Origin: an uncultured Eubacteriales bacterium
GTDB lineage: Bacteria > Bacillota > Clostridia > Christensenellales > UBA1242
DNA length: 33,212 nt
Direction: 5' to 3'
Assembly: GCA_900321185.1 (NCBI GenBank)
Contig: ONVD01000040.1
Location: forward strand, 1-33,212
This document shows, piece after piece, positions 1,039-32,380 of this stretch. Made by a program: the position numbers and the translations under genes. Under the pieces are notes generated by a model that worked only from the letters and a program-made list of their open reading frames with translations, was not told where the DNA came from and made no database searches. Every line of letters begins with the position of its first letter. Position 1 is the stretch's first letter.

Positions 1039-1115
<77 letters not shown>

Positions 1116-17118: not shown

Positions 17119-17223
17119 AATGATATTTTATTTTTTGATTTTTTTAAATATGTAAAATTTTTGTATTTTTCATATTAATAATTTTTTTGTAATAGAATAA
17201 TTAAAAAACTCTGGAGGTGCGTC

Positions 17224-18744
17224 ATACCAAAATCTTCTGTTTTTCGCGCAGTGTTGATTGTTGCTTTGTTTTCTATTTTGACGCGCTTACTTGGCTTTTT
17301 ATTTCGAATTTATCTATCTCGTGAACTAGGTGCTGAGATGTTGGGTATTTATCAAGTGGCATTTAGTATTTTTATGGTGTTGACCATATTGGTATCTAGT
17401 GGATTGCCTCTCACTGTGTCCAAACGCACTGCACGTTACCAAGTCCTTAATGACAAAAAGAGTCAATATGGCATTGTGTCGTCTTCGTTAGTAATTGGGC
17501 TAAGTATTTCTGTTGTGATTTGTTTGGTTTTTGTAATTTTTCAAAATTTTATTGCTAATTTATTTACAGATGCACGAGCTATGACAATATTGCTCACGTT
17601 GTTGCCAGCCGTCGTATTTAGTGCTGTCTACTCATCTTTCCGTGGTTCATTATGGGGGACGAAAAATTATTTTTTTGTATCCTTAGCGGAGTTTGTAGAG
17701 CAAGTGGCACGCATAGTGTTCTTTGTGTTGTTGCTAGAGTGTCTATTGCCAAATGCGAATGGCGGTGTTGTGGCTGGTCTAAGCATGACATTTGGATGCA
17801 TGGTTTCTATGGTGTTTGTGGCCATTGTCTATTTTGCGGACAAGCGTAAGTTAACTAGTCCGAGAGGGTATTACAAAGAGATATGGCATAGTGCTTTGCC
17901 CATCACTGGTGTGCGTACCGCCACCAGCCTCATTCAACCGCTGATTGCTGTGTTGTTTCCATTTATGTTAGTGTTGTCGGGACACACTAGTGAGCAGGCC
18001 ATGAGCTTATATGGTATTGTCATGGGAATGGCATTTCCATTGTTGTTTTTGCCCTCAACTATTGTAGGAGCAATGAGTTTCACACTCATTCCTGATTTAT
18101 CTGTAAGTATTGCCAAAAATGACACTTTGGATGTGGCACAAAAGATTAAATCTAATTTGTTTTTTGCTATGCTTGTTAGCGTTTTGTTTGTACCTTTTTA
18201 TTTGGGTGCAGGGACTGAGATTTGCGAGTTTTTATTTGGCAATAGTTTAGCAGGAGTTTATCTTGCGCGTAGTGCATTTGTTATGTTACCTTTGGGGCTC
18301 TCTAACATAACAAGTAGTATTCTTAATACTTTTAATCTAGAAGTAAAATCTTTTGTCAACAATATTGTTGGTGGTGCGTTGTTGATTGTGTGCGTAGTGT
18401 GTTTGTCTGGCATTATGAGCGTAGATGCATTGATATTAGGGTTCTTTTTGTGCATGACTGTCACAACAGTGCTCAATCTACTAATGTTAAAACGTCATAC
18501 ACATTACAAATTAAATATATTTAGGCCTATGCTATTAATGATTTTGTTCGTTATTCCTAGTGCTATGCTGTGCAAGTTTGTTTGTGGCATTGTTACAACA
18601 TATTTGGGCTTGTTTTGGGGGATTGCGTTTGGAGGAATAGTAAGTATATTGGCGTTTTTGGTCTTGTGTTGGGCTTTTAGGTTGATTGATATTATTTCGC
18701 TTTTTTGTAAATTTTTACCAAAAAAGTTTAAAAAACATGCATAA
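17224..18744 (+). CDS. MOP-family flippase, SpoVB/MurJ-like, apparent ATA start
   Basis: A polytopic membrane protein of about 506 residues in the MOP superfamily (polysaccharide exporters, MurJ, SpoVB). It probably flips a lipid-linked oligosaccharide, possibly lipid II. The N-terminal motif ILTRLLGFLFRIYLSRELGAEMLGIYQ is typical of SpoVB-like proteins, and hydrophobic segments continue to the end, consistent with 12-14 helices. The start is odd. A perfect GGAGGTG (17213-17219) is followed four bases later by ATA at 17224, in frame, giving xPKSSVFRAVLIV, the expected N terminus. The first normal start, GTG 17251, has no ribosome site and would cut off nine residues. A yetF-DUF4363 pair and murA follow, which suits either a sporulation or wall-synthesis role. 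Confidence 0.85.
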   Translation: MPKSSVFRAVLIVALFSILTRLLGFLFRIYLSRELGAEMLGIYQVAFSIFMVLTILVSSGLPLTVSKRTARYQVLNDKKSQYGIVSSSLVIGLSISVVICLVFVIFQNFIANLFTDARAMTILLTLLPAVVFSAVYSSFRGSLWGTKNYFFVSLAEFVEQVARIVFFVLLLECLLPNANGGVVAGLSMTFGCMVSMVFVAIVYFADKRKLTSPRGYYKEIWHSALPITGVRTATSLIQPLIAVLFPFMLVLSGHTSEQAMSLYGIVMGMAFPLLFLPSTIVGAMSFTLIPDLSVSIAKNDTLDVAQKIKSNLFFAMLVSVLFVPFYLGAGTEICEFLFGNSLAGVYLARSAFVMLPLGLSNITSSILNTFNLEVKSFVNNIVGGALLIVCVVCLSGIMSVDALILGFFLCMTVTTVLNLLMLKRHTHYKLNIFRPMLLMILFVIPSAMLCKFVCGIVTTYLGLFWGIAFGGIVSILAFLVLCWAFRLIDIISLFCKFLPKKFKKHA

Positions 18745-19910: not shown

Positions 19911-19939
19911 TTCACACAAAAACCTTGTTCGCATATAAT
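19911..19939 (+). promoter_or_regulatory. Promoter of murA
   Basis: TTCACA (19911-19916) and a perfect TATAAT (19934-19939) are 17 bp apart, about 33 bp before the apparent murA start. Confidence 0.7.
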
Positions 19940-19972
19940 AGTTATTGAAAATGTTTTTTGGAGGAAAAATAT

Positions 19973-21226
19973 ACGGATAAATTTTTGATTAATGGTGGGC
20001 GACCACTTTGTGGCCAAGTAGAGATACCTTGTAGCAAAAATGCCTACCTACCTATTTTGGCGGGATGTATTTTGTGTGATGGCAAGATAGTTTTGCACAA
20101 ATGTCCACGTTTTAGTGATATCGATGCAATGTTAAGGGTGTTGGAGACCCTTGGGACTGTGGTAGTTAAACAAAATGATGATTTATACATAGATTGTACA
20201 AAAATAAAATTTAGTTACATACCAAGCGAACTAACCAAAATAATTCGTTCGTCTATTTTTACTTTGGGGGCTTTGTTAGGTAGACTTAGACGTGCCAAAA
20301 TTGCATATCCTGGCGGTTGTGATATCGGTGTACGACCCATAGATTTGCATCTAAAAGGTTTGCGTGCACTAGGAATTAAGGTAGAGGAAAGGCATGGATA
20401 TATTTCTTGTGAGTCTACCAAATTTTGTGCGGGGAGCGTAGACTTGGATTATCCCAGTGTTGGTGCAACCGAAAACTTAATGATGGTTGCTGTTTTGTCA
20501 AGTGGAGTGACTACTATTCGCAACCCAGCCAGAGAACCTGAGATTGTGGACCTCCAAGATTTTTTAAACTCCATGGGGGCAAAAATCTCGGGTGCTGGTA
20601 CTAATGAGATAGTGATACAGGGTGTGGACAAACTGCATTCAACAGAATATACCCCAATGCGAGATAGAATTGTGGCAGGAACATTGTTAGTTGCTTGTGC
20701 TATGACTGGTGGCGAGGTGACACTAACACACTGTAACCCAGAACATTTCTTGCCAATAGTAAACAAATTGGTAAAAAGTAGTTGCAAAATTGAGGCAAAT
20801 AATGATAATATTTGTATATCCAGTGATGGATGTCTACAGAGTTTCGGCGAACTGGAGACAGGGCCATATCCAGCGTTTCCTACAGACATGCAGACGCAAA
20901 TGCTAACTATGTCTACAATTTGCAAGGGAAGTACACTGGTGACCGAGAATGTGTTTGAGTCGCGTTTTAGGGTAGTGCCCGAACTTAGTAAAATGGGTGC
21001 TGACATTGTGGTGCAAGGACGTACTGCCTTTGTGCGTGGAGTGGATAGGTTGCTAGGTGCGACAGTTTATGCACATGATTTGCGGGGCGGTGCTGGGTTG
21101 GTACTGGCAGGACTGTGTGCAGTAGGATATACTACAGTTTATGATGTATGGCATATAGACCGTGGGTATGAGCAATTGGACCAAACTTTGGCATCCTTGG
21201 GGGCGGACATTCATCGCTTAGATTAA
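19973..21226 (+). CDS. murA: UDP-GlcNAc 1-carboxyvinyltransferase, apparent ACG start
   Basis: A 417-residue enzyme that adds enolpyruvate to UDP-GlcNAc, the first committed step of peptidoglycan synthesis and the fosfomycin target. Catalytic Cys116 lies in GGCDIGVRP, and the substrate-binding Lys-Asn pair is in SKNAYLP. The start is unusual. GGAGG (19960-19964) is followed eight bases later by ACG in the position where MurA has its Met: ACG then DKFLINGG, against MDKF in E. coli MurA. With ACG as codon one the Lys falls at residue 22, as in E. coli. A TTG at 19958 is in frame but overlaps the ribosome site and has none of its own. Next come ftsQ, ftsA and ftsZ. Confidence 0.93.
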   Translation, partial: TDKFLINGGRPLCGQVEIPCSKNAYLPILAGCILCDGKIVLHKCPRFSDIDAMLRVLETLGTVVVKQNDDLYIDCTKIKFSYIPSELTKIIRSSIFTLGALLGRLRRAKIAYPGGCDIGVRPIDLHLKGLRALGIKVEERHGYISCESTKFCAGSVDLDYPSVGATENLMMVAVLSSGVTTIRNPAREPEIVDLQDFLNSMGAKISGAGTNEIVIQGVDKLHSTEYTPMRDRIVAGTLLVACAMTGGEVTLTHCNPEHFLPIVNKLVKSSCKIEANNDNICISSDGCLQSFGELETGPYPAFPTDMQTQMLTMSTICKGSTLVTENVFESRFRVVPELSKMGADIVVQGRTAFVRGVDRLLGATVYAHDLRGGAGLVLAGLCAVGYTTVYDVWHIDRGYEQLDQTLASLGADIHRLD

Positions 21227-30040: not shown

Positions 30041-32380
30041 ATGGACAAATTTAGTACGAACGAATATTTTAAAAAGCTCAATGCATATTTTGATGCGGTT
30101 AACTATGTATCCGCTGGGCAGTTGTACTTGCAGGATAACCCTTTGCTCGAACGTAAACTCGAACGAGAAGATATCAAGGCTCGTATTGTGGGACATTGGG
30201 GTACAGTCCCAGGTCAAAACTTTGTATATGTGCATTGTGACCGAGTCATAACAAAATATGACCTTTGTATGATGCTTATTTCTGGACCAGGTCATGGGGG
30301 CAATTTTTACATAGCTAATAGTTATCTTGAGGGCGTTTATTCGCAAGTTTACCCAGAGATAACTTATGACCGTGAAGGGTTAAAGAAATTATTCAAGCAG
30401 TTTTCATTTCCTGGTGGGGTATCCAGCCACGTCTCGCCCGAAGTCCCTGGCAGTATTCACGAAGGAGGCGAGTTGGGTTACAGCCTTGCACATGCCTTTG
30501 GCGCAGTGCTAGACAACCCCGACCTTATCGCCACAGTTATCGTAGGTGATGGTGAAGCAGAAACTGGGCCACTGGCTACATCTTGGCATCTCAATAAATT
30601 CATTAACCCCGCTACAGACGGAGTCGTTTTGCCGATTCTTCATCTCAATGGCTACAAGATTAGCAATCCTACAGTGCTGTCTCGTATCTCAAATGACGAG
30701 CTTTTAGACTTGTTCCGTGGCTATGGTTACCAACCTATTGTGGTTGCTGGAGATAACCCTATATCTATGCACCGCTCAATGGCAAAAGCGATGGACAAAT
30801 GCATTGAGAGTATTATGCGTATTAAACAGTCTGCTCAACGCCCTAGTTATCATAGACAACCTTTCCCTATGATTATCTTGCGTACACCTAAGGGGTGGAC
30901 TGGACCAAAAGTTGTAGACGGCAAACAAATTGAGGGTAGTTTTAGGGCTCATCAAGTGCCAGTAGATATGTCCAAACCCGAGCATGTCGCCATAGTCGAA
31001 CAATGGCTTAGGAGTTATCACCCCGAGCAATTATTCGTCAATGGTAAATTGCGACAAGATTTGCAAGATATCTTGCCAAAAGGCGACAAGCGTATTAGTG
31101 CTAATCCAAACGCCAATGGCGGTCTATTACGCAAGGACCTAAACTTGCCCCTCACTACCGAGAGCGCTACATTGCTTAAATCTCGTGGGGCAGATTATGC
31201 CCAAGATATGCTCGTTTTGGGGGACTACTTAGGTAAAGTGTATGAGCGCAACCCTCACAACTTCCGCATTTTTGGACCAGACGAGGCTATGTCAAATAGG
31301 CTGTATCACGTATTCGACAATCAAACTCGTGCCTTCGATGCCAATATTTTGCCAACCGACGAATATGAATCTCGCTCTGGACGTGTAATGGACGCATTTT
31401 TGTCCGAACACGCTTGCGAAGGTATGCTAGAGGGGTATTTGCTGACTGGTAGACATGGATTAATACACAGTTATGAGGCATTTATGCGTATCATAGATAG
31501 TATGGTGGGTCAACACGCCAAATGGCTCAAAATTTGCTCGCAACTAGATTGGCGTGCAGATATCTCTAGCCTCAATATAATACTAACTAGTACAGTTTGG
31601 CAACAAGACCACAACGGCTATACCCACCAAGACCCAGGATTTTTGGACCAAATCTGTAACAAAAAGCCTAACATCGTACGTATCTATTTGCCACCAGACG
31701 CCAACACTTTGCTTTGCGTAGCTTATCATTGTCTAGAGACCAAAAATAGGATAAACACAATAGTTGCATCAAAACATCCAACCCCACAGTGGCTGACTAT
31801 CAAAGAGGCAAGACAACATTTCAAAAACGGCGTTTCTATTTGGGATTGGGCTTGCACGGGTGACCCAAACAATCCAGATATAGTCATCGCTAGTGCTGGT
31901 AGTAGCCCAACGCTCGAAGCTTTGGCTTGCGTAAAGGTTTTACACGAACTTTTGCCCGAGATTAGCATTAGATTTGTTAATGTTGTAGACCTTATGCGTC
32001 TTGTGTCACCGCAATATCACCCACACGGACTCTCGGATGAGGATTTTCAAGCAATATTCACACGCGACAAACCTATTTTGTTTAACTTCCATGGTTATCC
32101 ACATTTGATTCACGAACTCATTCATAAACGCCCCAACAACGATAATTTTCACGTTCGTGGATACATCGAGGAGGGAACTATCACCACACCTTTTGACATG
32201 CGTGTTCAAAATGGTACAGATAGATTTAGTCTTGTTCTGCTCGCTCTCAAATATTTGTCTATCCCAGGCGCGCGCAAGGGGCATATTAGACGTATCATGG
32301 AGCAAAAACTTCAACAGCACCATGACTATATCCGTGAACATGGCGTAGATATGCCCGAAATCACCCAGTGGCATTGGTAA
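30041..32380 (+). CDS. xfp: Phosphoketolase (xylulose 5-P / fructose 6-P)
   Basis: A 779-residue thiamine-diphosphate enzyme that splits xylulose 5-phosphate, and in many cases fructose 6-phosphate, with phosphate to give acetyl phosphate and glyceraldehyde 3-phosphate or erythrose 4-phosphate. It lets a fermenter make acetyl phosphate, and so ATP, without pyruvate. SGPGHGGN (81-88) and GDGEAETG (169-176) belong to the thiamine-diphosphate site, LHLNGYKISNPT follows, and the middle and C-terminal domains include FGPDEAMSNRL and WQQDHNGYTHQDPGF. The length matches the family (about 790). AGAGGTAGG is the ribosome site. A small gene follows at 15 bp. Dual specificity is likely but not provable here. 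Confidence 0.96.
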   Translation: MDKFSTNEYFKKLNAYFDAVNYVSAGQLYLQDNPLLERKLEREDIKARIVGHWGTVPGQNFVYVHCDRVITKYDLCMMLISGPGHGGNFYIANSYLEGVYSQVYPEITYDREGLKKLFKQFSFPGGVSSHVSPEVPGSIHEGGELGYSLAHAFGAVLDNPDLIATVIVGDGEAETGPLATSWHLNKFINPATDGVVLPILHLNGYKISNPTVLSRISNDELLDLFRGYGYQPIVVAGDNPISMHRSMAKAMDKCIESIMRIKQSAQRPSYHRQPFPMIILRTPKGWTGPKVVDGKQIEGSFRAHQVPVDMSKPEHVAIVEQWLRSYHPEQLFVNGKLRQDLQDILPKGDKRISANPNANGGLLRKDLNLPLTTESATLLKSRGADYAQDMLVLGDYLGKVYERNPHNFRIFGPDEAMSNRLYHVFDNQTRAFDANILPTDEYESRSGRVMDAFLSEHACEGMLEGYLLTGRHGLIHSYEAFMRIIDSMVGQHAKWLKICSQLDWRADISSLNIILTSTVWQQDHNGYTHQDPGFLDQICNKKPNIVRIYLPPDANTLLCVAYHCLETKNRINTIVASKHPTPQWLTIKEARQHFKNGVSIWDWACTGDPNNPDIVIASAGSSPTLEALACVKVLHELLPEISIRFVNVVDLMRLVSPQYHPHGLSDEDFQAIFTRDKPILFNFHGYPHLIHELIHKRPNNDNFHVRGYIEEGTITTPFDMRVQNGTDRFSLVLLALKYLSIPGARKGHIRRIMEQKLQQHHDYIREHGVDMPEITQWHW

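Follow-up and report, generated by a model that had tools for sequence, protein, structure and literature searches.

The murA gene of the window, by which we mean the whole 33,212-nucleotide stretch of DNA that was analysed, is probably translated from an ACG codon at position 19973. This codon would be a genuine start of low efficiency, probably sensitive to IF3, and would restrict peptidoglycan synthesis at its first committed step. ACG is absent from the start codons of NCBI table 11, and natural ACG starts are very rare in bacteria.

Anatomy of the murA start site

The start region was read on the forward strand, with the following features.

19911–19939 (+), sigma-70-type promoter, TTCACA-17-TATAAT, 11 of 12 consensus matches
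19946–19948 (+), TGA that closes the murA frame upstream
19958–19960 (+), TTG, the sole in-frame ATG, GTG or TTG upstream of the ACG
19960–19964 (+), Shine-Dalgarno (SD) sequence GGAGG of murA
19965–19972 (+), 8-nt spacer, AAAAATAT
19973–19975 (+), ACG, the proposed start codon, aligned with the Met position of family MurA
19973–21226 (+), murA, encoding UDP-N-acetylglucosamine 1-carboxyvinyltransferase, 417 residues counted from the ACG
19985–19987 (+), second in-frame TTG, downstream of the ACG at residue 5

The earlier note had described a perfect GGAGG followed after eight bases by ACG at the methionine position of MurA and then by DKFLINGG, and the sequence confirmed this arrangement: the middle base of the ACG, at 19974, is C, and the codons that follow are GAT AAA TTT TTG ATT AAT GGT GGG. 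Its numbering was also borne out by the translation, in which the conserved lysine of the SKN motif is residue 22 if the ACG is residue 1. The further claim that the TTG at 19958, overlapping the SD, is the only normal in-frame start holds upstream of the ACG, with the other TTG lying downstream.

Duplex energies with the anti-SD were computed as −9.3 kcal/mol for the ACG, −3.3 kcal/mol for the TTG at 19985 and −0.9 kcal/mol for the TTG at 19958. As a reference, the median over genes in the genome was −8.2 kcal/mol, and random genome positions gave a median of −1.8 kcal/mol and a 1st percentile of approximately −9.5 kcal/mol. The duplex at the ACG is stronger than that of the median gene and lies near the random 1st percentile. 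Among the candidate murA starts, a strong SD is present at the ACG alone; no canonical start has an SD of its own, the TTG at 19958 being present and SD-less. Transcription is predicted to start at approximately 19946, which leaves about 12 nt to the TTG at 19958 and about 27 nt to the ACG. Judged by this anatomy, the ACG is probably the murA start.

The start codon in relatives and the competing readings

The murA start was read in 70 genomes of the family, which included the source genome (G000) and the only two same-genus relatives compared, namely the sister species G001 (68% identical) and G002. A canonical start was found at the Met position, or at most four codons from it, in 68 of these genes. 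The two exceptions were the source genome, with ACG, and G002, in which AAGGAGG is followed after seven bases by ATC at the Met position. In G001, the promoter TTCACA-17-TATAAT was read with equal spacing upstream of murA, and the ATG, preceded by an SD of its own, is shifted upstream by 12 nt to stand where the source genome has GGAGG. By this alignment, the family ATG of murA is lost in three of three genus members, while the other family members have retained canonical starts.

The main rival reading is a start at the TTG at 19958, which would add a five-residue extension (MEEKYTDKF) and place the GGAGG inside the coding sequence. This TTG is canonical and in frame upstream of the ACG, and a MurA started there would not look odd, since MurA from G001, whose ATG occupies almost the same site, carries an extension of similar length (four residues, N-terminus MKEDLQKY). 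However, the duplex upstream of the TTG is weaker than the background median, so that it has no SD; the codon lies very close to the predicted transcript start; and the perfect SD would be wasted within the gene. Moreover, in G002 the in-frame TTG precedes the ATC by nine codons, a still greater distance, and likewise lies upstream of the SD. A start at 19958 is accordingly considered unlikely.

Slightly less probable again is a true T at base 19974, giving ATG, with an assembly consensus that is wrong or derived from a minor strain. A single C/T change would yield a textbook ATG, the source genome is a draft of 60 contigs (906 kb, 97% complete), and no conspecific copy was found in the viral contigs or genus genomes searched. 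Nevertheless, one wrong base in the source genome could not explain the absence of the family ATG from all three genus members, with G002 independently carrying ATC and G001 having moved its start. In addition, the site lies mid-contig with intact neighbouring frames, and the proposed ATA start of a MurJ-like gene, common to two species, indicates that non-canonical starts exist in the source genome. The earlier note had weighed a T-to-C error against a near-cognate start and had proposed a comparison with close relatives; this was run, and the ATC at the equivalent codon of G002, together with the relocated ATG of G001, favoured the near-cognate reading. The ACG thus appears to be a genuine start of low strength rather than a sequencing slip.

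Decay of murA, with the start lost by drift and MurA made poorly or not at all, would suit a reduced genome and a weak start but is very improbable, given a full-length intact frame (469.3 bits against TIGR01072, curated cut-off 392.7, residues 2–415 of 417 covered), retention of SK22N and of the catalytic Cys loop AYPGGCDIG, a conserved promoter, an intact SD, the lack of any second MurA in the draft genome, and the presence of murD, mraY, murG, ftsZ and further wall and division genes.

A translational frameshift was also considered. An out-of-frame ATG mini-ORF of nine codons (MFFGGKIYG and a stop, 19951–19980, +) spans the SD and the ACG of murA, and a similar out-of-frame mini-ORF crosses the ATC of murA in G002. 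As the frame offset differs between the two genomes, there is no shared mechanism, and a shift from the mini-ORF into murA was rejected.

Relatives of the source genome are small-genome Clostridia, with named matches labelled, for example, as uncultured Clostridia or Christensenellaceae. Two side observations on the draft were recorded. The genes of one contig (G000:C1, locus L112) look far higher in G+C than the rest, a possible contamination, and positions 30041–32380 of the window hold a phosphoketolase gene, here in a relative of small-genome Clostridia.

Candidate non-canonical starts elsewhere in the genome, in the genus and in cyanobacteria

Across 324 homology-supported genes of the source genome, only four have a non-canonical codon placed behind a strong SD and no SD-bearing canonical competitor. 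These include murA (ACG) and MurJ (ATA); an in-frame ATG stays plausible in the remaining two. Of 492 long ORFs scanned under strict criteria, murA, the MurJ/SpoVB-like gene and a GlmU-like gene stood out as convincing, and a looser scan yielded mainly internal chance matches. A genome-wide habit of near-cognate starts was therefore rejected, as canonical starts dominate and only a handful of genes pass the strict scan. Within the wall pathway, murD, mraY, murG, ddl and glmS have ordinary starts.

The MurJ/SpoVB-like gene lies in the window upstream of murA.

17213–17219 (+), SD sequence GGAGGTG of the MurJ/SpoVB-like gene, −13.0 kcal/mol
17224–18744 (+), MurJ/SpoVB-like flippase gene with a proposed ATA start at 17224, the ATA being common to G001

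The mechanical start of this gene, GTG at 17251, is without an SD, and the ATA stands nine codons earlier, behind GGAGGT in both the source genome and G001. At the aligned Met of MurJ, ATA was also found in the genome G010, where its relatives have ATG, and apparently likewise in G015. For the GlmU-like gene (L147:8091–9038, −), ATA behind GGAGGT is proposed as the start; the encoded protein is short (315 residues), with most of the acetyltransferase domain missing. For infC, each of the three genus members has AUU or AUA at the SD-spaced position (L230, L231 and L232). No canonical infC start is possible in G001, and the in-frame ATG of the source genome overlaps the SD and has none of its own.

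Near-cognate murA starts were also found in cyanobacteria. All six murA genes of Nostoc and Desmonostoc seen among the control loci carry ATT or ATC after GGAGGT. Within one cyanobacterial order (Nostoc and others), 45 of 50 genomes, which were drawn evenly over the order but with the 30 best-matching read first, have ATT, ATC or ATA 7–8 nt after GGAGG (loci L098, L100, L101, L108, L109, L110 (at 2935) and L333–L384). The starts comprised ATT (39), ATC (5), ATA (1) and GTG (1), with four left unassigned by the automatic rule; inspection showed ATT in some of these four. No canonical codon close to the start is conserved in this order. Among distant members of the phylum, no convincing SD-backed near-cognate murA start was found and canonical TTG, GTG or ATG codons lie nearby; these served as a negative control, indicating that the method does not simply invent near-cognate starts. 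Judged from these sequences, the cyanobacterial order is a case independent of the clostridial one. Together with MurJ ATA in two species and infC AUU or AUA in the genus, the AUU and AUC starts of cyanobacterial murA lend further support to the near-cognate reading of the ACG.

Proposed mechanism and comparison with known near-cognate starts

Under the proposed mechanism, the initiator fMet-tRNA would read the ACG despite mispairing with its middle base, and the perfect GGAGG at 8-nt spacing would rescue initiation. We expect initiation to be several-fold weaker than at AUG and to be discriminated against by IF3, such that the output of MurA, the first committed peptidoglycan step, would stay low and follow the status of IF3 or the ribosome, in the manner of infC and sigR. 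The initiator tRNA of the source genome is ordinary.

1039–1115 (+), initiator tRNA-fMet (CAT), with ordinary GGG/CCC anticodon-stem pairs

IF3 is present, and each of the three genus members has an infC that scores above the cut-off. The idea that start selection has become lax because IF3 is missing or the initiator tRNA is unusual was therefore rejected, and near-cognate starts in the source genome should face the discrimination that IF3 is known to exert. The MurJ-like flippase and GlmU-like genes, both with AUA, may share the throttle of murA.

A near-cognate start on an essential wall enzyme in two unrelated lineages suggests that start weakness is used to set the dosage of wall synthesis. 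We tentatively extend this to murA as a recurrent near-cognate target, reached independently in one clostridial genus, with ACG and AUC, and in one cyanobacterial order, with AUU and AUC, in which a weak, IF3-sensitive start possibly ties wall synthesis to translation capacity. Because the cyanobacteria concerned can be cultured and manipulated genetically, the idea is open to immediate testing. As gene callers reject ACG and rarely place AUU, AUC or AUA starts, such genes are mis-started in annotations. No report of a murA gene with a non-canonical start was found in the literature searched, which is not proof of novelty.

By its anatomy, murA fits the kind of IF3-sensitive near-cognate start represented by several known genes. 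IF3 represses the non-canonical starts of infC and of sigR (GTC) in Streptomyces (PMC5472188). One close parallel is infC (AUU/AUC/AUA, IF3-autoregulated), which shares with murA a near-cognate codon, a strong SD and an essential gene, and whose AUU/AUA occurs in the same genus; it differs in encoding a translation factor rather than a cell-wall enzyme, in its codon, and in having a known feedback. In sigR, as probably in murA, a near-cognate start limits the output of a dosage-relevant gene, although sigR is a regulator with demonstrated IF3 repression, whereas murA encodes an enzyme for which such repression is predicted. In Staphylococcus aureus, extended SDs precede infC (AUA), ccpN (AUA) and cvfC1 (AUU), and reporters carrying the non-canonical sites tested reach approximately 10% of the AUG level in poor medium (PMC13009471). 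The ccpN and cvfC1 starts, which are conserved and were validated by initiation-ribosome profiling (PMC13009471), resemble that of murA in pairing a non-canonical codon with a strong or extended SD, and differ from it in gene, in codon and in that ribosome-profiling validation.
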